Origin: a virus
Length of the DNA stretch: 21,199 nucleotides
Strand: one strand, 5' to 3'
IMG/VR virus record: IMGVR_UViG_3300025674_000488
Location: 1 to 21,199 of that record
Position 1 is the stretch's first letter. Each line of letters starts with the position of its first letter. The position numbers and the translations under genes were made by a program. This document shows, one piece after another, positions 8,910-21,043 of this stretch. The notes beneath the pieces were generated by a model. That model saw nothing but the letters and a program-made list of their open reading frames with translations. It ran no database searches and was not told where the DNA came from.

Positions 8910-9638
8910 TCAGCTCCGGGAGACGTAAAGGGTGACCTTCAGGCCAGCGCCTGCGGTGCCGCTGCCCACCTGGTCAATGTCGATCGTGATCTCTGCATCA
9001 TCCGCCAAGGCTGAGTCTGAGATCACCGGAGGGGTCGCTGCCGTCTCGCTCGTTTTCTCTCCGTCATCAATGCTCAGCTTCGTGCTTAGCACTGACGTTC
9101 CGGCTTCGTTGATGTCAACGATCAGATCGCTGCCCACTGGCGCCGTGGTCACTGTTGCCTTCACTGCGGTCAGTGTGCCAGCGGTTGGCATCCTGAGCGT
9201 CACCTTCGCGGTGCCGGTCGTCAGCGCTGTCGTTTCGTCGCTGCAGGCGATGACGTAGATGTCATCAGCGCCGCCCCACTGCGTTTCGTAATCGACTCCG
9301 CTTGACTTCTTCAGTAGCTGCCCCGCTGTTCCCCCTGCGGGAACTCCTACTCCATCAGCACCATCGGCACCATCGGCACCATCGGCACCATCGGCACCAG
9401 CGGGGCCTGTTGGACCTGTTGGTCCTGTTGGGCCAGCCAGCGTGCCGAGGTTGTCCCAGGCGCTTCCATCCCAAACGTAAAAAACTCCTGTATCTTCCGC
9501 TTGGTAAATATCGCCCGTGGTGGCGCCACCAGGGAGTGCGGCTTCATTGGCGACGGTGCCGAGCACATTGAGCGCACTGAATGAAGACCCTGAATCATCC
9601 AGGCCAATACCGATCAGTGGGTTGAATTTATAGGCCAT
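8910..9638 (-). CDS. Collagen-like phage fibre protein
   Basis: A 242-residue protein in three parts. Residues 1-68 are an N-terminal domain with ATTGDIYQAEDTGVFYVWDG and SAWDNLGTLA, the short strand repeat found at the base of many fibres. Residues 69-98 are ten Gly-X-Y triplets (mostly GPT and GAD), enough for a short collagen triple helix, so the protein is probably a trimer. Residues 99-242 are a beta-rich domain with GTAGQLLKKSSGVDYETQWG and a C-terminal strand LKVTLYVSRS. The start ATG at 9638 has GGAG at 9650-9647 with 8 bases of spacing. Collagen-like triplets occur in many phage fibres and spikes. Position after the capsid module suggests a head fibre or adhesin. Confidence 0.8.
   Translation of the reverse strand: MAYKFNPLIGIGLDDSGSSFSALNVLGTVANEAALPGGATTGDIYQAEDTGVFYVWDGSAWDNLGTLAGPTGPTGPTGPAGADGADGADGADGADGVGVPAGGTAGQLLKKSSGVDYETQWGGADDIYVIACSDETTALTTGTAKVTLRMPTAGTLTAVKATVTTAPVGSDLIVDINEAGTSVLSTKLSIDDGEKTSETAATPPVISDSALADDAEITIDIDQVGSGTAGAGLKVTLYVSRS
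9357..9434 (-). repeat. 9-bp tandem repeats coding the collagen triplets
   Basis: Five near-perfect 9-bp units (plus-strand ggcaccatc) at 9357-9401 are followed by further 9-bp units of the pattern tggNcctgt up to about 9434. Each encodes three residues of the Gly-X-Y segment. Tandem arrays of this type change copy number easily, so fibre length may vary between relatives. Confidence 0.8.
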
Positions 9639-10520: not shown

Positions 10521-12803
10521 TCAGAGGGTGTTGTTGCCGCGACAGAAGGCCTCGGGGTGACGCACAGCCACATCGACATCCTGCAGTGCAGTGACGCGCA
10601 CGCCGCCGCTCTTGTCGTTGGCGTAGGGGTTCACCTGGATATCCAGCGACCCCCACATCCCCATGATCATCTGGCTCCACACCCCCATGAAAACGTCACC
10701 AGTGGCCACCTGGTTGGAGCGCACCACGGGGTAGCCGTTGACAGTGCCGCCGGGCTCGAGCACAAACTGAGCGGTGCTGGCTGCCTTCTCGGTGGTCTTG
10801 AAGCCGCCGTAGATGGTGCTGTTGGTCAGGTAGCTCATCGCGCCGATGTCGGCGTTGTCGGCGGCAATCTTCGACTCCATGCTCACCAGTTCGGCATAGG
10901 TCGGGTTAGCGGCGTTGAAGTCCTCGGTGTTGATGCCTGTCACCAGCTTGAGGCCTTCGGGCTGGCTGCTAGAGCCCAGGCCATACAGCGCAGCGCGGTC
11001 GATCTCCAGGGCGATCACAGTGGCCAGCTCGGTGCGGACCATCTGCTCAACGTCGATGGAGCTCTGCAGCATCAGGCGGCGGGAGAACTCGGTGAAGGCG
11101 CCGAGCGTTTTGGCCACCAGGCTCACCTGATCAACGGTGGGCTCGGATTCGGTGGGGTCACCACCTTCAGCCACCCAGTAGGCAGTCGCGGCGCCAGTCT
11201 GGCGGGGGATTGCCACGGGGCCTTGCAGGCCGGTGAGCATGGTTACGCCGAGGGTGTTCAGGGCCAGGCGGTTGCGCAGCAGTTCGATGAAGCTGCCGGG
11301 GCGAGCATCGGTGAACACCAGATCGCCAGCGCTGGAGGCGTTGCTGACGGTCAGGTCGCGGCTCAGCACGTCGTTGGGGGCCAGGATGCCGCGAGGGGTC
11401 ACGCCCATGCGCTGAGCGGTGGCATCGGAGACTTCGCGCTCGAAAGCGGCAGCCTCGTAGGCAGCGCGGTCGTTGGGCATCATCTGCGCGCGGATTGCCT
11501 TCACGAAGCTGAAGCTGCGAGCTTCTTTCTCGGTCAGGCCGATGTCAGCAGAACCACCACCGGATGCGATGGGCTGAGCGGAACGGGCAGGGGTTGCAGG
11601 GGTTGCAGGCTGGGCAGCGGGACGCTTAGCGATCTCGGCCAGAACCGAGCGCATAGCGTCAGCTTCAGAGGCACCGGATTCGATCAGGCCCTGGGCCAGG
11701 TCGTCTGCCTTGTGCTCACGGCAGAGGGAAGTAATAGAGGCAACGCGGGTGCGCTCATCGGCCGCAGCCTGAGCCCGCACGGCCTCCATGTCGATGGTGG
11801 AGGTGTCCATTTCGGTTTTGATGTTTTGGGACAGGGGTGCGACCGTGGTCGCTGCAGCACCGGGGGGACCGGCGCTGCTGGTGGCCTTGCGGCCTTGGCC
11901 AACCGTATGGTCGGCGGGGATTGACACGGCGCTGACCTCCATCGGAGTGAAGGATGTCACCAGTGCCATGCCTTCCCGGCTGGTGGTGTCGAGCGGTGCA
12001 TCGATGCTGTACATGAACGACACGTTCCTGATCGTTCCGCTCTCCCAGTCCTGGCGGCGCTTGTATTCTTCGCTTCCTTCGATCTTGGTGTTCGGGCTCC
12101 AGCGAGTGCGGACACGGCCGCGGCGGTCGTCGCCCATCCAGGCACGCTCAACGACTCCCAGCACGACCTCAGCATTGTGATTCCACAGCCATGGCGCCGC
12201 GCCACTGTTCAGGCGGCTCATGTTCATGGCCTCGGGGTCGTGGCTGAGCACCTCCATCCCGAAATATCGCTCGACCGGCTGCTCTGAGCTGAATGTGAAC
12301 TCCACTACCTCGGGATCCTCATCAGCACGCGCAACCTCAGCCACCACCGCCGAGCGGTAGAGGGGCTGAGAGTTGAGGTCGCGCAGATCCATCGTCGAAG
12401 GGTGGCCCTTTGCTGCCATGCTATCCGCTGGGGGTTCAGTGCTCTCTGCGCTGCGCTCGCCTCGCGCCTTCTTTATGCTCTCGCCCTTGGCGGTGCTCCA
12501 GGTCTGGCCAGCGTCACCACCCCAGGCTGCCCATGCGACACGCCCAGGTGAGGGGTAGCCGTCCTCGTCTGGGCTGAAGCCCTTGCCCTGCTTGTCCACC
12601 TCATGCCTGGCGAACCAGGCCGCCATGACAATCACCGTGTCGGGGCTGAGCTCATCGCCGGAGAGGATCTGGCTGGCCCTGCGGGCTGCCACGTCGGTGC
12701 CGCCAGCCTCGCCGTCTTCCTTCCACGCGCGATAGCGCCGTGCCTCTGCCCTCATGCCCTCGGTGGGCATCAGGTTGATCTCAGTGCCGTTGACGTTGGC
12801 CAT
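10521..12803 (-). CDS. Capsid polyprotein: N-terminal phage domain + HK97-type prohead protease + major capsid protein
   Basis: A single 760-residue frame. Residues about 10-115 hold a small phage domain recognisable by KGFSPDEDGYPSPGRVAWAA followed by WGGDAGQTW. Residues about 140-310 are an HK97-type (S78) prohead protease with PVERYFGMEVLSHDP, NHN containing candidate catalytic His209, IRNVSFMYSI, and EVSAVSIPAD with candidate Ser291 (or Ser294). Residues about 325-395 are helical and charged, like the scaffolding delta domain, followed by a Pro/Ala linker (395-412). Residues about 420-760 are an HK97-fold capsid protein: GDLVFTDARPGSFIELLRNR, IPRQTGAATAYWVAEGGD, and ALEIDRAALYGLGSSSQPEG. 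Self-cleavage presumably frees the capsid subunit. Start ATG at 12803 overlaps the portal stop as TGATG. The frame is continuous, so this is a genuine fusion. Confidence 0.92.
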   Translation of the reverse strand: MANVNGTEINLMPTEGMRAEARRYRAWKEDGEAGGTDVAARRASQILSGDELSPDTVIVMAAWFARHEVDKQGKGFSPDEDGYPSPGRVAWAAWGGDAGQTWSTAKGESIKKARGERSAESTEPPADSMAAKGHPSTMDLRDLNSQPLYRSAVVAEVARADEDPEVVEFTFSSEQPVERYFGMEVLSHDPEAMNMSRLNSGAAPWLWNHNAEVVLGVVERAWMGDDRRGRVRTRWSPNTKIEGSEEYKRRQDWESGTIRNVSFMYSIDAPLDTTSREGMALVTSFTPMEVSAVSIPADHTVGQGRKATSSAGPPGAAATTVAPLSQNIKTEMDTSTIDMEAVRAQAAADERTRVASITSLCREHKADDLAQGLIESGASEADAMRSVLAEIAKRPAAQPATPATPARSAQPIASGGGSADIGLTEKEARSFSFVKAIRAQMMPNDRAAYEAAAFEREVSDATAQRMGVTPRGILAPNDVLSRDLTVSNASSAGDLVFTDARPGSFIELLRNRLALNTLGVTMLTGLQGPVAIPRQTGAATAYWVAEGGDPTESEPTVDQVSLVAKTLGAFTEFSRRLMLQSSIDVEQMVRTELATVIALEIDRAALYGLGSSSQPEGLKLVTGINTEDFNAANPTYAELVSMESKIAADNADIGAMSYLTNSTIYGGFKTTEKAASTAQFVLEPGGTVNGYPVVRSNQVATGDVFMGVWSQMIMGMWGSLDIQVNPYANDKSGGVRVTALQDVDVAVRHPEAFCRGNNTL

Positions 12804-14320
12804 CAGTCCTCAGTGGTCGGGTCGGGTTCCTGCTCTGGTGTGGCGTTCGGGGCGCCGCCCTGCTGATCGTCGGCCGGGTTGGTGTCGAACTGCAGGCCCA
12901 GTTGTTCAGCCCTGTCCACCTCATTGGCACGAGCAACCAGCAGATCCTCGATGTCACCACCACTCTCGGCGACGATCTGCGCCTGCGTCTTGAAGCCAGA
13001 TCTGACGGCTTCCTTGTATGCCGCCACTTCCTTCTGCGGATCCACCCAGGCCCATCCGCGCGGATACCACTGAACGGCCTCATAGCGCTCTGGCATGGCC
13101 TCATAGTCGGGCAGCCGCAGCTGGCCGGCTCCAACGGCAGCGGCCAGCCAACGCTCATAGATCGGCTGCAGCAGGTGCTCGATCATGAAATCTTGCAAGA
13201 TGCGCCACTGCTCGCGATCTTCCAGCAAGCTCAGCCGGCTGCTGCTGTAGTTGCTCTGGCTGAAGTCGCGGCTAATCGTCTCGTAGCTGCAACCGATCGC
13301 GGCGGCCACCGAGCGGAGCATTCCGCGCAGGAACGGCTCAAACTGCCCATCAGGGGCGTCGAGCTGGGGAACGTTGACGGTTTCGCCGGGCGCCAGGTAC
13401 TTAAAAACGCCAGGCTCGAAGCGGCTCACCTGATCGCCGTCGAGCACCTCATCACCCTGGAGCTCGCCCTCGGGCGATTGGATGAAGCCCATAAGGCTGC
13501 TGTTGGCCCTGGCTCTGACCACCTCGGCCTCCTCGTAGCCGTCCAGGTGGTGAAGTCGCTTGATGGCGCTGGCCACCCATGGAGCGCCACGGGTCTGGCC
13601 GGGTCGCTCGGGGATGAACAGGTGGATGATCTGATCGGCAGGCACCTCGATCACTTCGCCGCCGCGAGCGTTGGCAATGTCGCCCGGGTGCGTTGTGCGG
13701 AACGCATACCGCACAGGCCGCCCCCAGCGGTTGACTTGGACGCCCATGCGCCACTGGTTCCCGTTGGCATCCTTGCCGTAGCTCTTGCCCTCGTCGCAGT
13801 AATCCGACTCGATGATCTCGATCCCGAGGGGGATCCGGCTGCGCCCGAACGGTTCGGGGATGACCCGCAGGAACACCTCGCCGGATTCGGCCACGGCCGT
13901 GATCGCCAGCCGCAGGATCTCGGCCATGCTCAGCCGGCCAGCGACGTGGCAGCGGTCAGCCCTGCACCAGGTCTGCCAGGCTGCCTCAATGCGGCGATTG
14001 ATCGGCTCGTTCAGCCGGTTGCCGCGTTGCATCCGCACACGGCCCTGCATCCTGATGCCACGCCCGACGACATTGGCGCCGATCGCGCGGATGGCTTGGC
14101 GGGCGTAGGGAGAATCACGGACGAGCTGACGCGAGCGGTTCCGCAGCCGCACCAGGCTGCCGTCGATCTCCGCGTCTGCGCTGGTGCTGCTGGTGATCCA
14201 GTTGGCAGTCAGCCGGGACTGCAGTGCGCCCTCATAGGCTCGCCGGCGTTTCGGGGTGTGCGCCTCCGGCATGGATGCGGCTTTGCCGGCGATGCGGCCA
14301 CCCGCTGCTTTCCTGGCCAT
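12803..14320 (-). CDS. Portal protein, lambda family
   Basis: A 505-residue protein of the lambda portal family. Landmarks are RLRNRSRQLVRDSPYARQAI near residue 60, IGANVVGRGIRMQG, AWQTWCRADRCHVAGRLSMAE, the SGEVFLRVIPE strand, the ADQIIHLFIPERPGQTRGAP motif, and AAIGCSYETISRDFSQSNYS followed by SSRLSLLEDREQW. Length and order agree with the family. The dodecameric portal forms the DNA entry pore, docks the terminase and nucleates capsid assembly. Both junctions are TGATG overlaps (14320 and 12803), so it is translated together with the upstream gpW-like gene and the capsid polyprotein. The C-terminus is acidic and low-complexity (NATPEQEPDPTTED). Confidence 0.93.
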   Translation of the reverse strand: MARKAAGGRIAGKAASMPEAHTPKRRRAYEGALQSRLTANWITSSTSADAEIDGSLVRLRNRSRQLVRDSPYARQAIRAIGANVVGRGIRMQGRVRMQRGNRLNEPINRRIEAAWQTWCRADRCHVAGRLSMAEILRLAITAVAESGEVFLRVIPEPFGRSRIPLGIEIIESDYCDEGKSYGKDANGNQWRMGVQVNRWGRPVRYAFRTTHPGDIANARGGEVIEVPADQIIHLFIPERPGQTRGAPWVASAIKRLHHLDGYEEAEVVRARANSSLMGFIQSPEGELQGDEVLDGDQVSRFEPGVFKYLAPGETVNVPQLDAPDGQFEPFLRGMLRSVAAAIGCSYETISRDFSQSNYSSSRLSLLEDREQWRILQDFMIEHLLQPIYERWLAAAVGAGQLRLPDYEAMPERYEAVQWYPRGWAWVDPQKEVAAYKEAVRSGFKTQAQIVAESGGDIEDLLVARANEVDRAEQLGLQFDTNPADDQQGGAPNATPEQEPDPTTED

Positions 14321-14886
14321 CAGAACCTCACAAAGACGTTGCGGGGATCACCCAGTCCCTGCGCGATCTTCTCTGCTGCTCGCTCACGGGCGACGATGGC
14401 CTTGAGCTGCGCCTCGCGCTGCATCAGCAGGCCGAGGTCGTTGCTGGTGTAGCTGCGGTTCCCGATCGAGTATTGCTTCGCGCCCTTGCTGACGATGGCT
14501 CTAATGGCAGCCTGAACCGCGTCCAGATCTTGCTCTGCCTGGCTGCGGCCATCAAATGCCGTGGGGTCGCCGGTGAATGACAGTGACGGCAGCACCTCGG
14601 TTGTTCCGCTGCCGGTGACCACCACCACGGCGCCGGACGTGATGCGGCGCTGCCAGTACCAGGTGCCGCTGGCCCAGGATTCCGTAGTCGCTGCTGACAG
14701 GGCCACGTCCCAGCCACCATCAGCGCGGGCCGATCCGGCAACAGTCGCGCCCTCGCCTGCGGTGTTGGTCCTGAAAGAAATCTGCAGCGTCCAGGTGTCC
14801 GACGTGGCCGGGGAGTCGGTGACAAGCGCAGGCGGCTCGATCCACTGGATTGTCGAGCCGCTGTAAATCAGGGCGGGAACAGTCAA
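14320..14886 (-). CDS. Ig-like domain fused to a gpW-like head completion domain
   Basis: A 188-residue protein with two parts. Residues about 1-108 (MTVPALIYSGSTIQWIEPPA; DTWTLQISFRTNT; SWASGTWYWQRRITSGAVVV) form a small beta-sandwich of the type seen next to phage head genes. Residues about 112-188 (AEQDLDAVQAAIRAIVSKGA; YSIGNRSYTSNDLGLLMQRE; GLGDPRNVFVRF) follow the helix-hairpin-helix plan of lambda gpW, which plugs the portal after packaging. The start must be TTG at 14886, because a TAA stop lies in frame two codons upstream and no later ATG precedes the conserved opening. No ribosome-binding site is visible. The gene begins directly after the non-coding repeat region, so its translation may depend on the structure there. 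Confidence 0.72.
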   Translation of the reverse strand: MTVPALIYSGSTIQWIEPPALVTDSPATSDTWTLQISFRTNTAGEGATVAGSARADGGWDVALSAATTESWASGTWYWQRRITSGAVVVVTGSGTTEVLPSLSFTGDPTAFDGRSQAEQDLDAVQAAIRAIVSKGAKQYSIGNRSYTSNDLGLLMQREAQLKAIVARERAAEKIAQGLGDPRNVFVRF

Positions 14887-14917: not shown

Positions 14918-14944
14918 GCAGCGCGGAGAATAACCCCGCGCTGC
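14918..14944 (-). other. 9-bp GC-rich hairpin closing the repeat region
   Basis: GCAGCGCGG (14918-14926) and CCGCGCTGC (14936-14944) are perfect complements around a 9-base loop. It takes the place that the constant block occupies after the other pentamer tracts (both follow a gcaag pentamer on the minus strand). There is no T-run after it on the minus strand, so a classic terminator is unlikely. A processing, anti-decay or start-site-masking element is possible. Confidence 0.6.
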
Positions 14945-14980
14945 CCTTGCCGCGCCGCGCCGGGCCTCGCCACGCCGTAT

Positions 14981-15040
14981 CAAAACCATCCATGAGGATG
15001 GCAGAGAGCCCCGAAGGGCTCTGTGCCACCGTCTGTGACC
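14981..15040 (-). other. Structured block 1 (hairpins, UUCG loop)
   Basis: On the minus strand: a constant GGTCACAGACGGTGGCAC, then stem AGAGCCC / GGGCTCT closed by a C-UUCG-G tetraloop, then CTGCCATCC TCAT GGATGG, a second 6-bp hairpin. GGTGGCA can also pair with TGCCATC (one wobble) to extend the first stem, competing with the second hairpin. The UUCG loop is right only on the minus strand, pointing to RNA made in the direction of the phage transcript. Confidence 0.7.
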
Positions 15041-15100
15041 CTTGCCATGCCCGTCCTGACCTGGCCACGCCTCGCCAAGCCGCGCCTCGCCGTGCCGGGC

Positions 15101-15160
15101 CTGCGACCATCCGTGAGGATGGCAGGGAGGGGAAGACCCTCCGTGCCACCGTCTGTGACC
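15101..15160 (-). other. Structured block 2 (covarying copy)
   Basis: Same layout as block 1, with its start 120 bases away. The flanking constant parts are nearly identical, but the central stem is GGAGGG / CCCTCC around TCTTC in place of AGAGCCC / GGGCTCT around TTCG. Both arms changed and pairing is kept, which is covariation evidence for a selected hairpin. The second hairpin loop differs by one base (TCAC against TCAT). Confidence 0.7.
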
Positions 15161-15263
15161 CTTGCCGGGCCTCGCCCAACCAGGCCGTACCGCACCCGGC
15201 CTTGCCTAGCCCGTCCCGACCTTGCCACGCTGGGACTTACACCTTGTGAGGATGCCCAGTGCA

Positions 15264-15854
15264 TCAGTCGAAATCGACTTCAAAACGGCCATGCTTGGGT
15301 CGCCAGTCACCCATGCCGACAAATCGGCCAGCATCGCTAGCGATTTCCTCGACGTCTCGCCGGTTCAGCACGTCAGGGTCGTACTGGAATCGAGCCACGC
15401 AGACCCAATGCCGAAAGATCGGGCGTGTGCGCATGACCTTTGCCATGCCGACCTTGACGCGGACTTTGTGCGTGAAATCACCTGACTCAAACATTTCGGC
15501 CAGCGTGTCGTCATTGATTACGTCTGGCTTGCCTTGAAAATCCAGCGTTGCGTGCTGCGTGAAGTACAGGCCACACCTGGCATCGCCTCCACGTTTCTGT
15601 TTCTTAGCGCCAGCAATCATCAAGCTTTCAATCACATGGTCTGGAATGAGCAGATCATCCTCAGAACGATAGAGGCCAGCCAGCCATTCAAGGCGAGACA
15701 TCTCATCAAAATCAGCGTCAGTCTTTTTGCGTTTGCCGCTTATGACTTTCATTGCCTTGGCATAAGCGTTCTGCGGATCGGCGGTTTGCCCGTTGTGGCA
15801 CAACAACGGGCTCAAACCCCGCATCCGTACTTGGATCTCTGGGAGGTCGAACAT
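15264..15854 (-). CDS. Phage protein of unknown function with C-terminal GxGDWRPxxGRF motif
   Basis: A protein of about 196 residues from the ATG at 15854 (MFDLPEIQVRMRGLSPLLCH). An upstream TTG at 15899 would add 15 residues without conserved character. Recognisable parts are MRGLSPLLCHNGQTADP, KVISGKRKKTDADFDEMSRL, a LIPDHVIESLMIAGAKKQKR segment, VGMAKVMRTRPIFRHWVC, and the end FVGMGDWRPKHGRFEVDFD. I recognise the pattern as a recurrent phage family without an assigned role. The terminal glycine-rich G-x-G-D-W-R-P-x-x-G-R-F loop recalls RAMP/Cas7-like RNA-binding proteins, but that is only a resemblance. Its first 137 bases overlap the HNH frame. Base composition is closer to 50% GC than its neighbours. 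The pentamer array begins just after its stop. Confidence 0.75.
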   Translation of the reverse strand: MFDLPEIQVRMRGLSPLLCHNGQTADPQNAYAKAMKVISGKRKKTDADFDEMSRLEWLAGLYRSEDDLLIPDHVIESLMIAGAKKQKRGGDARCGLYFTQHATLDFQGKPDVINDDTLAEMFESGDFTHKVRVKVGMAKVMRTRPIFRHWVCVARFQYDPDVLNRRDVEEIASDAGRFVGMGDWRPKHGRFEVDFD

Positions 15855-16200
15855 TGGTGCGTGTTTTGGTGATTGGGATGGCCAGTGATGGCGCTGCAAC
15901 GTGAACGGCTTGCACCTGCTTGCGTGGATCGAGCTTGAAGCGTTGGCGGCGGACTGAGTTGGTTATGCCGTCGTGGCATTCGGAGCACAGCGTCAGAAGG
16001 TCAGACAGTGGCTCGTTGCCGAAAGACGGGTAGCGATAGTCCGGGGGTCCGGCATTGCGGTGGTGAACCTGCAGAGCAGGCCAGCCCAGCTCGGCCAGTT
16101 GCTGCCGCGTTATGCCGCAGCCTTGGCAGGTGTGCTGATCGTGATCGAGGCGTTGCTTGCGCTTGCGCTGCCAAGCGGCAGAGCGGTAGTAATCCTCCAT
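15718..16200 (-). CDS. HNH endonuclease next to terminase
   Basis: A 160-residue protein. The HNH core is clear: YYRSAAWQRKRKQRLDHDQH, zinc ligands C25-x2-C28 and C72-x2-C75, catalytic His pair at 46-47 in LQVHHRNAG, and LSDLLTLCSECHDGI. Core and length fit the phage HNH proteins coded beside the terminase, which in HK97-type phages act with the large subunit in DNA cleavage during packaging. The 65 residues after the core (from about 95) are basic, Pro/Arg-rich and overlap the next gene out of frame, so the C-terminal end may be a non-conserved extension. A homing endonuclease is the alternative. Start ATG at 16200. The intergenic space to the plus-strand regulator is 60 bases. Confidence 0.85.
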   Translation of the reverse strand: MEDYYRSAAWQRKRKQRLDHDQHTCQGCGITRQQLAELGWPALQVHHRNAGPPDYRYPSFGNEPLSDLLTLCSECHDGITNSVRRQRFKLDPRKQVQAVHVAAPSLAIPITKTRTNVRPPRDPSTDAGFEPVVVPQRANRRSAERLCQGNESHKRQTQKD

Positions 16201-16268: not shown

Positions 16269-16428
16269 GGGCATACGGGTTCAGGTGGTGATGCCGCCAG
16301 CTGTCGCGGACCAGCTCAAGGCCAGGGCCGAAGCCCAGGGCCGGACCGTCTCAAGCCTTGCCGCCTACATCATCGAGACGGCGCTGCGCTCACCAGCCGG
16401 TGACGAAACCGGGGCCGCTGGGCTCTGA
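16261..16428 (+). CDS. Small ribbon-helix-helix (Arc/CopG-type) protein
   Basis: A 55-residue protein starting MAQGIRVQVVMPPAVADQLK, with RAEAQGRTVSSLAAYIIETA following. The plan is that of a ribbon-helix-helix dimer: one strand (IRVQVVMP), helix A (AVADQLKARAEAQG), the turn with TVSS, and helix B (LAAYIIETAL). A GTG start at 16213 would add 16 poorly conserved residues, so the ATG at 16261 is chosen. It is the only supported plus-strand gene, divergent from the HNH gene and overlapping the last 39 bases of the terminase gene tail to tail. It probably regulates its own promoter or the divergent HNH gene. An orphan antitoxin-like role is possible but no toxin partner is present. Confidence 0.7.
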   Translation: MAQGIRVQVVMPPAVADQLKARAEAQGRTVSSLAAYIIETALRSPAGDETGAAGL

Positions 16429-18270
16429 TCGACGGCGGCGCTTTGGTTTGGACTCTCCCCCTTTGCGGCGCTCTTCTGCTGCTGCCTCTAATTGCGACCA
16501 GATACTGGCCCTGCTGTATCTGCGCTTGACCAGCTCCAGGATCGCCAGGCTGTAGACGGTGAGATCGAGCGGTTCGTTCCTGGCGCCCGAGGGGTTCTCC
16601 CAGTGGAGCACCTGGAAGCCCTTGACCATCTTGGGCACGAGTCGCTCACAGGTCAGCCCCTGCAGGTACTCCTCCGTCACGTCATTGGGCAGGTGGATCG
16701 CGCCGGGGCCGGGCGCGTCTTTCTTGAGCCTGGCGTAGATGGTGCGCTTCAAGGTGTCGCCTCCCACCTGATACAGCGTCAGGCCTTTCTTGATCGTCTG
16801 CCCTCTGCTGTTGACGTCGACACGGCTGCCCTTGCCCAGCGCTGGCGCTGCCTTGGTGCTGCTGCCCTTCAGGGCCACCACGCCCTCCCTGGCCCGCTGC
16901 CTGCAGTATTCGTAGGCCTCCTGGGTGAAGTGGCCGCCGGTGTCAACGCCGCAGTGACGGACCGTCAACGTGCCGCCGCCCTCCATCGGCCACTCGGTCT
17001 TCCTGATGCTGTCGATCTGCTCCCAGACGTCAGCCTCAGCCGGGCTGCCCTCCACCTTCTGATGCCAGATCCGCCACATCTCCTCACCACGACCAAAGCC
17101 CCAGACGGTGGTCTCCAGCCAGGTGTCTTGGGTGTCAACGGCCATCAGCAGCAGGACGACGCCCTCGGGGCAGGTGCCGCTTGAGAACGTCTCAGCCTGT
17201 GCCCTGGCCATCAGGCCCTCGGCGTTGATCACCGCCACGGCCTCATCCTCCCAGGCCTCGGCTGCGCGCTTGTTCACCCAACCCTTCAGCAGCAGTGGGT
17301 CAGGCTTCGCCCTAAGGAACTCATCGCGGATTTGCTCCCAGCTGGTCCAGCCAGCCGGGGCATACCACCCGGGCAGGTGGAATCCTGCGGTGATGCCGTC
17401 GCCCTTGGCGGTCGCCTGCCATTGGGCACCGGCCAGCATCGTGGTCTTGTGGTGCTCGCTGACACGTTCTCCACAGGCCGGGCATTGCGCGAACACCTCA
17501 CCATCGGGCCGGTCCCACTTCATGTGCTCGCGCCAGCGGAGCACCTCAAGCGATCCGCAGCAGGGCATGAGCACCGCCAGCTGTCGCCGATCTGATCGCG
17601 TCTCGTACTCGCTGGTGATTCTGCACATCCCGCGAGTGCCGGGTGTGCTGGTGATCAGCACCTTCCCCATGGGGAACGTCGATGTCCGAGCCTCTGCGTT
17701 CTCCAGGGGGTCGCCCTTGTCGTCTGCCTCGAACGGGTAAGACGACACCTCATCAGCCAGCAGGTAGGCCGCAGGCATCGACTGCAGGCCGCTGCCGCTG
17801 TTCGCGCCGGTGAGGACGAACAGGCCGCCCCTGAACTCCTTGAGGAACATGGTGTTGCCGCTATCCCTGGCCCTGGCGGGTGCGATCAGATCCGACAGGA
17901 CAGGCGTCTCGCGCAGCAGGGGCTCCAGCCGCTGGCGGTTCAGACGCTTGGCCATGTCGAGGGTCGGCTGCACGAGCAGGGTCGGCGCTGGCCACAGGTG
18001 GATGATCGCCCCCAGCCAGTTCAGCACCACCTCGGTCTTGCCCATCTGGCTGCCGAACATGAGCACGACACGACGCCACGGGCTGGAGGGGCTGAGGCAT
18101 TGCATCGGCTCCCGCAGATAGGGGGTCCGATCGGTGCGCCACGGGCCAGGCTCTGCTGAGCCCTTGGTCGACAGGATGCGGTGACGATCGGCCCACTGGT
18201 CAACGGTCATCGGATCCGGTGGCCGGAATCCGGTTTTGAATGCCGGCGTGTAGATCAGCCGGTTACTCAT
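16390..18270 (-). CDS. Terminase large subunit (GpA family)
   Basis: A 626-residue packaging motor of the lambda GpA type. The ATPase has Walker A GSQMGKTE (73-80) preceded by RRVVLMF, Walker B YLLADEVSS (about 169-177), and the coupling motif ITSTPGTRG. A Cys-rich insert (MPCCGSLEVL ... FAQCPACGERVS) is typical of this family. The nuclease part has AVDTQDTWLETTVWGFGRGE with candidate metal-binding Asp, then HCGVDTGGHFTQE. The C-terminus is basic (KRRRRSEPS). Length is normal for the family. It cuts concatemers and drives DNA into the prohead through the portal. Start ATG at 18270 overlaps the small subunit by 8 bases. Confidence 0.95.
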   Translation of the reverse strand: MSNRLIYTPAFKTGFRPPDPMTVDQWADRHRILSTKGSAEPGPWRTDRTPYLREPMQCLSPSSPWRRVVLMFGSQMGKTEVVLNWLGAIIHLWPAPTLLVQPTLDMAKRLNRQRLEPLLRETPVLSDLIAPARARDSGNTMFLKEFRGGLFVLTGANSGSGLQSMPAAYLLADEVSSYPFEADDKGDPLENAEARTSTFPMGKVLITSTPGTRGMCRITSEYETRSDRRQLAVLMPCCGSLEVLRWREHMKWDRPDGEVFAQCPACGERVSEHHKTTMLAGAQWQATAKGDGITAGFHLPGWYAPAGWTSWEQIRDEFLRAKPDPLLLKGWVNKRAAEAWEDEAVAVINAEGLMARAQAETFSSGTCPEGVVLLLMAVDTQDTWLETTVWGFGRGEEMWRIWHQKVEGSPAEADVWEQIDSIRKTEWPMEGGGTLTVRHCGVDTGGHFTQEAYEYCRQRAREGVVALKGSSTKAAPALGKGSRVDVNSRGQTIKKGLTLYQVGGDTLKRTIYARLKKDAPGPGAIHLPNDVTEEYLQGLTCERLVPKMVKGFQVLHWENPSGARNEPLDLTVYSLAILELVKRRYSRASIWSQLEAAAEERRKGGESKPKRRRRSEPSGPGFVTGW

Positions 18271-18778
18271 CCGAAATGCTCCTGATGGCTGTTCGGATCT
18301 CTTCTGTCAGGTATTGGTGCATTGCCCGGAGGTCGCTCATGCTCGCAAGCGTGGGGATCACCCGGTCGGGGATGGCCAGCATGTTGTCTCGCACGACTCG
18401 GGCGACGTTGAACGCTTCGGCTTTGACTTCAGCAGTAGAGATCAACTCGCCTTTCAGCTGCTGCAGCTCGATCCGTTCACGCTCGGCTTGCCAGACCGCC
18501 CGTGCTCGTTTGGCTTCTGCGAGTGATGGGCCGCCCCCTGCAGGGTGTGGCTGACGGGTGTCGATCGGGGCTGGCGGTGGTGGGAGCGCTCCACGAGGAT
18601 CTGTGTTCCCGGCCCATTGCTGGTCTGCGAGCGTGGCGTCGATGTGCCAGCGGCCGTCAACCTTGCGAACGGCAGGCTCAGTCAGGCGGCCTGACTCGAT
18701 CGCTTTGAGGACAGCAACGTGGGACGTACCGCGCAGGCCCTGCTCCTTGCGGTGCTTGGCATAGGCCTGGAGGTTCAT
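18263..18778 (-). CDS. Terminase small subunit (Nu1-like)
   Basis: A 171-residue protein. The first 60 residues carry a helix-turn-helix (GTSHVAVLKAIESGRLTE then VRKVDGRWHIDATLADQQWA) like the winged helix of lambda Nu1, followed by a Pro-rich linker (GALPPPPAPIDTRQPHPAGG) and a helical part KRARAVWQAERERIELQQLK with GELISTAEVKAEAFNVARVV RDNML typical of Nu1-like subunits. It recognises the packaging site and hands the DNA to the large subunit. Its start forms an ATGA overlap with the stop of the CmoA-like gene, so packaging and modification genes are translationally linked. Confidence 0.9.
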   Translation of the reverse strand: MNLQAYAKHRKEQGLRGTSHVAVLKAIESGRLTEPAVRKVDGRWHIDATLADQQWAGNTDPRGALPPPPAPIDTRQPHPAGGGPSLAEAKRARAVWQAERERIELQQLKGELISTAEVKAEAFNVARVVRDNMLAIPDRVIPTLASMSDLRAMHQYLTEEIRTAIRSISDE

Positions 18779-19452
18779 TTGTAAGGGAAGTCAGGGCCTT
18801 TTGCGGTTTTTTCGATTATCCACCCGGCAAAGTCACCAAACTTAAACCACAAATGACCTGGGGCTCCTAGTTGACTTTCAAGAATCGGCCGCTGCACTCC
18901 GCATAGGCTTAACTCTTTCTCAATAATCTCATCAGGCGCGACCCCGGCAGCGCGTTTTCCCGCAAGCGTGAGCCGATAGAAGACTGTGCTTAAGTAGCCG
19001 CCGGCTGGTTCTAGCTTGTCGAATACAACAATCGCTCCGCCTGGTCTACAGGCATTACTTAAGCGATTCATAAGCTGAACACGCTTTCGAGGCTCAATAA
19101 ACATCAGCGTTAAGAAAACAACGGCGAAATCAAAACCTTCATAATCAACATCTTCTGCCTTCGCGCAGGTTACTTCGCCAGGTGCGTCGTAGCGCTTTGT
19201 CATTTCAACAGAGGGCTCAACCCCAACCAACCGCGCTGAGCGATCTTCAAGGATCGGCGCAAGCGCTCGGCCAATGTTTCCCGTCGCTGCGCCTAAGTCG
19301 TAGACCAACCCGTTGTCGGGGATGTAGTGCCGCGCAATGTGCGTAATAGCATTCGTCGCCAGGTCGTACCAGGGCAGCTGCTCGCGAACGTGCCGGTCAA
19401 AGCCTGCGGCAACGTCTGATGCCTCGAAGGTCCAATTGCTTGGGATGTCCAT
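18775..19452 (-). CDS. CmoA-like class I SAM methyltransferase-fold protein (candidate carboxy-SAM synthase)
   Basis: A 225-residue protein from ATG 19452 (a longer reading from 19542 lies inside the DNA methyltransferase gene). SAM-binding motifs: VYDLGAATGNIGRAL (50-64), acidic VGVEP (77-80), DFAVVFLTLMFIEP (108-121), CRPGGAIVVFDKLEP (135-149). Compared from memory with E. coli CmoA, the correspondences run the whole length: WTFe..Va..Fd near the N-terminus, YDLG, FTLQFLEPSER against LTLMFIEPRKR, NPGGALVLSEKF against RPGGAIVVFDKL, FKRANG against GKRAAG, and LWFQCFNFGSL against LWFKFGDFAGW. CmoA makes carboxy-SAM from SAM and prephenate. Its Arg199 aligns with Glu180 in the shortest alignment, or with Arg188 (GVQRPILE) if gaps are allowed, so activity is uncertain. 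GC is lower than in neighbours, hinting at separate origin. Other methylation substrates remain possible. Confidence 0.75.
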   Translation of the reverse strand: MDIPSNWTFEASDVAAGFDRHVREQLPWYDLATNAITHIARHYIPDNGLVYDLGAATGNIGRALAPILEDRSARLVGVEPSVEMTKRYDAPGEVTCAKAEDVDYEGFDFAVVFLTLMFIEPRKRVQLMNRLSNACRPGGAIVVFDKLEPAGGYLSTVFYRLTLAGKRAAGVAPDEIIEKELSLCGVQRPILESQLGAPGHLWFKFGDFAGWIIEKTAKGPDFPYK

Positions 19453-19454
19453 AG

Positions 19455-20513
19455 TCAGAGCTTGCTGAGGATCTTGTCGGCAATGGACTGAGCGATGCGG
19501 GCCATCATCAGGGGCGGCACGGCGCGGCCGATCCGCTCCCACTGCTGGCTGAAGTTGCCGGTCAGAACGAAGTCATCAGGGAATCCGCCAATCCTCCGAA
19601 GCTCTTGAAGGGTGAGAGTCCGAGGCTCCGCCCAGTGATAGAGCTGCTGTGTGCCTTGGGTGATTGTGTTCGCCTGCCGGTGCGGCGATTGCTTGACGTG
19701 CGTCAGGAAGCTGTTCTTGCCCGTTAGCTCCAAACAGGTATCGGAAAGTGATGCGCCCGGCTTCGTCGCAAGCCAGTACCTATGCGTGTCAGTCCCGGGC
19801 TTAAGCCACTTTGCCTCTCCGCTTGCCGGGAGGCCCTCCACGGCTTCACCGACCGTGTACCGGTAGGTGAGGGGCGCGGGGTGCGCCGGCTCCTGTCCTA
19901 GATCATCCCGCACGCCAATAAAGATCGTCCGCTGCCGCATCTGCGGTACGCCGAGCCATTGTGCATCGAGCACACGGCAGCTCACCCGGTAGCCCGGCTC
20001 GCGGAGAGCCGCGAGGATCCGCTTGAAGTAGCCCTTCGCCGTGCCCTTCACCAGGCCGCTGACGTTCTCGGCAACGAAAACCTTCGGCCGGATCCCGTCG
20101 ATTAGCCGGACGTACTCAAAAAACAAGTCGTCGACCCGCTGCGCCTTATCGCTGTAGGCCTTGACCTTGCCCCACCCGGCCTCTCTCTTTCCAGCTGTCG
20201 AAAACGCTGAGCACGGTGGCGAACCATCGAGCAAGTCGAGCTCGCCCCGATTGACGCTCGCCTTCTCCATCACCTCCTCCGGCCTGACCTGCCGGATGTC
20301 TCGGGTATCGAGGTAGCTGTTCGGGTGGTTGGCCTTGTAGGTTCGCTGCGCCTCTTCGATGAACTCGTTGGCATAGACCACCCGATAGCCCGCCATGCGG
20401 TAGCCGAGGCAGCTCCCGCCGCATCCGCTGAAGGTCGAAGCTACTTGGTAGCCGTTCCACGAGATTGCCTCGATCTCGCGCATTGAAGGAATGCGGTAGG
20501 CCGGTTTGCTCAT
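19455..20513 (-). CDS. DNA cytosine-C5 methyltransferase with Arg in motif X
   Basis: A complete 352-residue C5 methyltransferase from ATG 20513, chosen because it forms an ATGA overlap with the upstream stop. Motif I is ASTFSGCGGSCLGYRMAG (25-42), motif IV DGSPPCSAFSTAGKRE with catalytic Cys101, motif VI VFVAENVSGL with Glu149, motif VIII VPQMRQRTIFIGVR, motif IX RTLTLQELRRIGGFPDDF, and motif X QQWERIGRAVPPLM. The target-recognition region between VIII and IX is short (about 95 residues), so the recognition sequence is probably short; it cannot be read from sequence. Motif X normally reads GNAVPP or GNSV; here the Asn is Arg330 (codon at 19526-19524). There is no partner restriction enzyme, so it probably marks phage DNA. 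It is followed after 2 bases by the CmoA-like gene. Confidence 0.95.
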   Translation of the reverse strand: MSKPAYRIPSMREIEAISWNGYQVASTFSGCGGSCLGYRMAGYRVVYANEFIEEAQRTYKANHPNSYLDTRDIRQVRPEEVMEKASVNRGELDLLDGSPPCSAFSTAGKREAGWGKVKAYSDKAQRVDDLFFEYVRLIDGIRPKVFVAENVSGLVKGTAKGYFKRILAALREPGYRVSCRVLDAQWLGVPQMRQRTIFIGVRDDLGQEPAHPAPLTYRYTVGEAVEGLPASGEAKWLKPGTDTHRYWLATKPGASLSDTCLELTGKNSFLTHVKQSPHRQANTITQGTQQLYHWAEPRTLTLQELRRIGGFPDDFVLTGNFSQQWERIGRAVPPLMMARIAQSIADKILSKL

Positions 20514-21043
20514 TTCGTCTTGCCGCTCCACTCGTAGCCGCACGATGGGCAGCGGTGGTCAGTTTCAATGTCGTCGTCAACCTCTGCAAATTCTTCGGGA
20601 GGCTCTGCTCTGTCGATTCCCTCGGGGTCCAGCAGGCCTGCCAGCTCATCCTCTGACCAGCCCATGAGGGAGAGGTCGAAGTCCACCAGGTTCAGCGCGG
20701 CGATCTCCTGCTGCAACAGATCGGCATCCCATCCAGCGTTCAGGGCCAGCTTGTTGTCAGCCAGCACATAGGCGCGTTTCTGATCCGGGGTCAGGTGATT
20801 GAGCACCACCACGGGCACCTCAGCCAGCCCCAGATCCTTCGCCGCGGCCAGGCGGCCATGGCCCGCGATGATGCCATCCTTGCCGTCAACCAGGATCGGG
20901 TTGGTGAAGCCGAACTCCTGGATGCTCGCCGCGATCTGCGCCACCTGCTCGGGGCTGTGAGTCCGGGCGTTGCGCTCGTATGGCACCAGGCGCTCAATCG
21001 GCCAGCGCTCGAGCTTCGACGGCATCACGGGTTTGTCGGTCAT
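20510..21043 (-). CDS. ParB/Srx-fold nuclease-like protein with C-terminal CxxC
   Basis: A 177-residue protein. Residues about 11-105 form a ParB N-terminal-type domain: IERLVPYERNARTHSPEQVA, IAASIQEFGFTNPILVDGKD, GIIAGHGRLAAAKDLGL (GHGR replaces the GERR of chromosomal ParB), VPVVVLNHLTPDQKRAYVLA. The middle (YVLADNKLALNAGWD then LLQQEIAALNL) is typical of phage ParB-like proteins found with DNA methylases. The C-terminus HRCPSCGYEW holds one C-x2-C, half of a zinc ribbon. Absence of a ParB HTH domain argues against partitioning. Likely a DNA-associated protein acting with the C5 methyltransferase, whose start overlaps its stop (ATGA). Confidence 0.85.
   Translation of the reverse strand: MTDKPVMPSKLERWPIERLVPYERNARTHSPEQVAQIAASIQEFGFTNPILVDGKDGIIAGHGRLAAAKDLGLAEVPVVVLNHLTPDQKRAYVLADNKLALNAGWDADLLQQEIAALNLVDFDLSLMGWSEDELAGLLDPEGIDRAEPPEEFAEVDDDIETDHRCPSCGYEWSGKTK

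Follow-up and report, generated by a model that had tools for sequence, protein, structure and literature searches.

Gene content of the locus

The DNA analysed here (the window) is a stretch of 21,199 nt, positions 1-21,199 of IMG/VR record IMGVR_UViG_3300025674_000488, which carries on its minus strand (15231-14947) an array of short repeats directly downstream of the gene at 15264-15854. The genes around the array are:

16390..18270, minus strand: large terminase (TerL) gene (Pfam GpA_ATPase, 5e-72; GpA_nuclease, 1e-86)
15718..16200, minus strand: HNH endonuclease gene (PHROG HNH endonuclease, E-value 1e-10)
15264..15854, minus strand: vipr gene, 196 residues, predicted RAMP/Cas7-like (phrog_4652, E-value 7.6e-48; PDB 36pp)
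14320..14886, minus strand: head-tail joining gene, the other flank of the cassette (phrog_5774, E-value 3e-55)

When we searched the PDB with a profile of 29 relatives of the 15264-15854 product, one strong protein was identified, the 'SUSP1 Vipr protein' (36pp, 1.2e-45, residues 4-193), and a tblastn search found the SUSP1 gene itself (2e-22, 29% identity); on this homology the product is Vipr. A RAMP fold of the Cas7/Csm3 kind is predicted for it: the top folds matched by its AlphaFold2 model (pLDDT 89.7) were Csm3 and the type VII Cas7 (Z ~10-11). Invariant glycines lie near its C-terminus. There were no matches to vipr among the PADLOC families, no close Vipr relatives in species genomes, and no homolog of SUSP1 vap1 in the window. 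A possible upstream TTG start of vipr lies at 15899; the HNH gene overlaps vipr in a different frame by 137 nt, or by 182 nt (15718-15899) with this start, and similar HNH/vipr overlaps were seen in L002 and other relatives.

Vipr is the Cas7-like phage protein of the VIPR (Viral Interference Programmable Repeat) systems of Escherichia phage SUSP1 and a Pseudomonas fulva prophage, which, as described in the main text of a 2026 bioRxiv preprint (PMC13142463), uses RNAs composed of GGY/NN repeats with a structured tail, the NN letters reading DNA with one base skipped each. In these systems, of which seven types are distinguished, Vipr is an early-branching small RAMP homolog with an RRM core, a G-loop, and a thumb, and its gene has a vap gene for company. 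Based on the Vipr identity of the adjoining gene, we therefore read the array as a VIPR guide-RNA (vrRNA) array. When the SUSP1 locus was read in this way as a positive control, the published layout was recovered, with vipr preceded by one vrRNA and followed by three. An earlier sequence-only reading of the window had already pointed, correctly, to this neighboring gene of then unknown function.

Anatomy of the repeat array

The array consists of three tracts of GGY-NN pentamers with structured blocks between them, bounded by two hairpins (in the order of the minus strand):

15229..15259, minus strand: 5' leader hairpin, CTGGGCATCC..GGTGTAAGTCCCAG, before the first tract; predicted to fold
15162..15231, minus strand: vrRNA 1 guide tract, 14 GGY pentamer repeats; candidate target in sibling phages
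15102..15161, minus strand: structured block (tail) 1, 60 nt; covarying consensus helix
15042..15101, minus strand: vrRNA 2 guide tract, 12 GGY pentamer repeats
14982..15041, minus strand: structured block (tail) 2; same fold as block 1
14947..14981, minus strand: short tract 3, GATAC plus six GGY pentamers
14918..14946, minus strand: terminal GC-rich hairpin closing the array; -26 kcal/mol by RNAfold, flanks included

At most 10 GGY units follow one another in phase without a break; such runs reach 3-4 units elsewhere in the window, and shuffling the whole window 200 times under an order-2 Markov model gave a maximum of 6 (mean 3.3). The GGY-NN unit is the GYNNG of the sequence-only reading in another phase. 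The 33 in-phase pentamers claimed there are present once the degenerate units GGACG (twice), AGCGT, and GATAC are counted, 29 being strict GGY, and the series of six pentamers said to recur does so with 4 changes in 30. That reading had also described the outer bases as nearly fixed and the inner ones as variable, which is borne out by ~1960 units from the clade, with G at 92% of first and 77% of second positions, C or T at 93% of third positions, and a near-uniform composition at positions 4 and 5. What it missed was that these variable inner dinucleotides are the information-bearing part. In order, they are GT AA CG CG TA AA CG GC AC CT TG GA CC AA for guide 1, CC AC GA GC TT GA GT CA CA CG AT AA for guide 2, and AC GT GA CC GC GC AA for tract 3.

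With hypervariable NN and 14 and 12 repeats, respectively, tracts 1 and 2 agree with the 9-16 GGY/NN repeats that define vrRNAs; tract 3 (6-7 repeats) is shorter than this published range. Among 60 related vipr loci taken from IMG/VR, arrays were found downstream of vipr in 59, with tracts mostly of 12-15 units, and the only locus without one (L059) is truncated. One tract of 23-26 units (L019:4902-5016) consists of a tandem duplication of about nine units, which suggests that guides grow by internal duplication; and a near-identical guide (GC AC AT CA TG AT GA CC GC GC AC), aimed at the head-tail gene start, occupies the closing tract in one array and the opening tract in another (L066:3962-4046 and L002:3805-3864), a sharing which indicates that guides move between array positions.

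In the window the starts of the two blocks (15161 and 15041) are indeed 120 nt apart, and the pentamer phase is kept across both, which is what favored the original proposal, in which blocks fixed at 60 bases leave the 5-base register unbroken and the whole is under selection for a filament that binds DNA or RNA. Block 1 (15161-15102) is exactly 60 nt; block 2 extends for 65 nt to the first strict GGY and has 60 nt only when GATAC is counted as a unit. The check proposed with that reading, whether lengths remain multiples of five in related phages, went against it: among 86 distinct tract-block steps from relatives, 24 had a start-to-start distance divisible by five, and the others left remainders of 4 (28 steps), 1 (17), 3 (11), and 2 (6), so that 62 of the 86 (72%) lose phase. 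Since block lengths vary among relatives, the register is lost across blocks; the single register in the window is, judged by these relatives, a coincidence, and we consider the fixed-register explanation very unlikely. The suggestion of selection on spacing for a filament-forming protein or an RNA fold nevertheless came close to the mark at its core, as the pentamer spacing within tracts is the one expected if a RAMP (Cas7-like) protein reads the vrRNA, and the blocks in between are RNA structures that covary; its extension of phase across the blocks is unsupported.

Structured tails and hairpins

The two blocks differ in their apical stem, where the changes are compensatory (GGAGGG/CCCUCC versus AGAGCCC/GGGGCUCU). 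Over the relatives, in which blocks are 48-74 nt long and occur in all phases, the consensus helix has 14 pairs, 11 of them with double-sided compensatory changes, and 99.5% of cells are paired; there were 51 doubly changed cells as compared to 14 in shuffles, and none of 500 shuffles scored as high. Single block sequences gave two alternative predicted folds, either three hairpins or one long nested helix. The covarying tail follows tracts 1 and 2, and tract 3 ends in a different hairpin, the terminal one, to which the hairpins ending the arrays of relatives are related. The leader hairpin is near-invariant in most relatives and occupies the same place, adjoining or overlapping the 3' end of vipr. 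Rfam searches at gathering and permissive thresholds returned nothing meaningful for the window array, with weak matches in relatives only; a tRNA search of the window and scans for sigma-70 promoters and terminators around the array found none.

A tandem repeat near the terminase gene with several open frames through it might also be taken for a slippage microsatellite, a coding repeat, or a packaging (cos/pac) element. To these we give practically no credence: the inner letters are hypervariable while the scaffold is fixed, the blocks covary, and most relatives that have the same terminase lack the unit altogether. Furthermore, because a period of five together with indels between relatives fits no frame, the array is not coding, as the sequence-only reading had held.

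Guide 1 matches the terminase gene of sibling phages

We searched all of IMG/VR with guide 1 as a gapped pattern of 20 fixed letters with a 1-nt skip, and a single contig matched, L064, which is 91-93% identical to the window and has no HNH gene, vipr, or array between its terminase and head-tail genes. The match lies in the large-terminase gene, at its 3' end; this site (GTC AAG CGC CGC TAC AAC CGC GCG ACG CTT TGG GAT) agrees with 24/24 letters of the first 12 dinucleotides of guide 1 and 25/28 overall, every skipped base being a codon wobble position. Among relatives collected by their terminase or head-tail genes, guide 1 matched at ≥19/20 in 65 loci (median 24/28 in the matching relatives), including Synechococcus phages S-CBS1 and S-CBS3 (24/26 each), for which L085 and L078, respectively, were taken. 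In the matching phages the wobble letters vary freely and the NN letters hold; because the skipped base is the wobble base, guide 1 would cover phages down to ~73% terminase protein identity.

The clade as a whole allows the skip to be examined. With 108 clade guides, a threshold of ≥19/20, and all arrays strictly masked, the searched DNA being mostly cassette flanks, 13 guides matched at skip 1, seven of them perfectly, as compared to one guide at skip 0 and none at skips 2 and 3; guides that were shuffled or reversed in order had no matches at ≥19/20 at any skip in the same DNA. Apparent skip-3 matches in a first skip test were gone under strict masking, and were therefore matches of array against array. 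In the sense targets identified the first N is at codon phase 0, and the skipped base is therefore the wobble base. Terminase-directed guides are those of the window, L003, L049, and L198; head-tail-directed guides are those of L002/L088, L066, and L075, with the L002/L088 and L066 guides aimed at the N-terminal codons of the gene; and other guides have their targets in structural genes downstream of the relatives' arrays. We also considered that the matches to terminase and head-tail genes might be due to chance or shared codon bias, given that these genes are GC-rich, that ~108 guides raise the number of chance matches, and that 18/20 matches were found for 6 of 120 shuffled guides; however, the 13 guides at skip 1 against none or one at other skips and none for shuffled or reversed guides at ≥19/20 make this explanation exceedingly improbable.

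Guides 2 and 3 had no target above chance. A match of guide 2 to L203 from an exact 18-letter search reached 19/24 in total with its ends unmatched, and a single one to the proteobacterial contig L205, from an exact 20-letter search of genome contigs, covered the first 10 units, with ~0.5 such matches expected by chance; we accepted neither of the two. Neither guide 2 (≤3 mismatches) nor guide 3 (≤1) matched any of 36 related phage records.

Carriers differ from their own guides

The counterpart of the guide-1 target in the window itself is:

16490..16530, minus strand: homolog of the guide-1 target in the window's own terminase gene, codon-changed; agrees with guide 1 in 18/28 letters

At this site the window has the arginine codons AGA and AGG where siblings have CGC, which is synonymous, yet alters letters that are read. 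None of the 14 guides with such targets matched its own locus, and the homologous own sites that could be aligned were all below 19/20 (product of chances 0.002, assuming independence and ignoring kinship). These observations point to a way in which a carrier could stay clear of its own weapon, and in which targets could escape: a switch between codon families, since wobble changes are ignored.

Five phages with no detected cassette (L065, L067, L068, L072, and L073) carry an AGR/AGY-recoded guide-1 site, and because of these the changed terminase site is not unique to carriers. In cassette-free phages it may be a feature of the clade, an escape, or the remnant of a lost cassette, and the phages themselves are possibly escape variants or former carriers. 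One of them, L067, keeps the window's terminal hairpin just before the head-tail gene, as if it had once borne an array. A separate observation is that a guide of L198 (L198:2299) matches the terminase gene near residue 328 in 101 loci, the window's own included; the window phage itself is therefore a predicted target.

A present/absent cassette with an HNH gene

The relatives were fetched by terminase (80) and by the head-tail gene (74), and in the 154 terminase loci counted, in which some contigs appear twice, 30 have both HNH and vipr, 124 have neither, and none has only one. HNH is present, adjoining vipr, in 58 of the 60 vipr loci, and its HNH motif looks intact on inspection. Where closer relatives have the empty site, the TerL and head-tail genes are mostly 25-45 nt apart. 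When the window is compared to its empty-site sibling L069, terminase identity is ~0.95 and then 0.52-0.73 in the last 120 nt beside the cassette, and it is 0.67 at the start of the head-tail gene. Other two-gene cassettes occupy this slot in L067 (2562-4420; 189 and 354 residues) and L155 (470-2640; 185 and 374 residues), their genes having no confident Pfam match.

By its linkage, the HNH protein is a strong candidate for a VIPR accessory (vap); it may serve this clade as its vap, or it may be a homing enzyme. The second option leads to a more speculative possibility, that of an RNA-guided homing cassette, whose guides would direct Vipr, with HNH, to the genes flanking the empty site of siblings, where cutting or marking would be followed by repair from the carrier, copying the cassette along with the changed flanks. 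Three observations point this way: HNH and vipr are always together at the fixed site, several guides address the two flanking genes, and the window and L069 diverge exactly where the 3' end of the terminase gene meets the cassette, and again at the head-tail start. However, the HNH protein could be an independent homing enzyme, its cutting being only putative, SUSP1 VIPR represses without such linkage according to the preprint text (PMC13142463), and some targets are away from the insertion site, such as that of the L198 guide at TerL residue ~328. We regard homing as doubtful; it extends the explanation we consider best and does not contradict it.

Proposed function and relation to known systems

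That explanation, which we think very probable, is that a cyanosiphophage relative of S-CBS1 and S-CBS3 encodes here a vrRNA array of the VIPR kind, with guide 1 addressed to the terminase gene of siblings and the carrier spared. We infer transcription, processing, binding, and repression, and any part played by HNH, as follows. The minus strand would be transcribed through HNH, vipr, and the array, and the array RNA would yield guides each consisting of a GGY/NN tract and a structured tail. Vipr would assemble along the tract with the GGY letters as scaffold, and each NN pair would read the double-stranded DNA and skip one base. Guide 1 would thereby find the 3' end of the large-terminase gene in sibling phages competing for the same host, and binding, perhaps with cutting by HNH, would block the packaging genes of the competitor. 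The carrier would be spared because its own terminase differs at the site, partly by CGN-to-AGR arginine codon switches. A broader and tentative proposal, which we consider rather unlikely, is that of a self-sparing RNA-guided cassette, inserted beside packaging genes and acting against the allelic flanking genes of siblings, possibly by homing, as a natural gene drive among cyanophages. In this proposal the carrier's own flanks would have been recoded at non-wobble positions (CGN to AGR), wobble changes offering no escape from the code.

The locus shares with the known VIPR systems a homologous Vipr, phage-encoded GGY/NN tracts mostly of 9-16 repeats, a structured 3' tail, and 1-nt-skip targets in competing phages with the skip on the codon wobble. 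It differs in that HNH is fixed beside vipr and overlaps it, whereas vap1 lies downstream in the known system; in the position of the array between the terminase and head-tail genes of cyanosiphophages; and in that guides address the packaging and head genes of siblings, cassette flanks included, from which the carriers' own copies differ. On sequence grounds, it is a new VIPR member from cyanosiphophages, and one of its guides has a clear natural target while the other two have none. HNH, terminase, and homing are not mentioned in the main text of the preprint, and relative to that text the new elements are guides naming the genes that flank the cassette and carriers whose own sites differ.

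Class 1 CRISPR-Cas (Csm3/Cas7) has in common with this locus a RAMP fold, a guide RNA with a structured handle, and periodic non-pairing positions, but here there is a single small RAMP protein and a non-contiguous guide code, with no repeat/spacer array or adaptation genes. CRISPR-Cas loci are marked by a cas operon and by direct repeats that are identical and enclose unique spacers; no such repeats were found, and the gene neighbors scanned were phage structural, methylase, and HNH genes. The locus also resembles free-standing phage homing cassettes in having an HNH gene present or absent at a fixed site beside an essential gene, with border sequences that differ between carriers and empty-site phages, and its presence/absence, fixed site, and border divergence fit such a cassette; it differs in being an RNA-guided module whose guides name the neighboring genes, with homing hypothetical. 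The matches described above confirm the VIPR reading rule independently and from sequence only, in a clade distant from both tested systems; the isolated phages S-CBS1 and S-CBS3 are among the natural targets. The fixed linkage of HNH at a present/absent site makes RNA-guided homing directly testable.

Other genes in the window

Elsewhere in the window, 10521-12803 encodes a fused prohead protease and major capsid protein (Peptidase_S78, weak; Phage_capsid, 3e-39), and collagen-like 9-base repeats (9352-9403) lie within a tail-region gene (8910-9638). Upstream of the terminase genes, 18775-21043 contains genes for a SAM-dependent methyltransferase (PHROG 'tRNA methyltransferase') and a C5 cytosine DNA methylase, together with a ParB-like gene.
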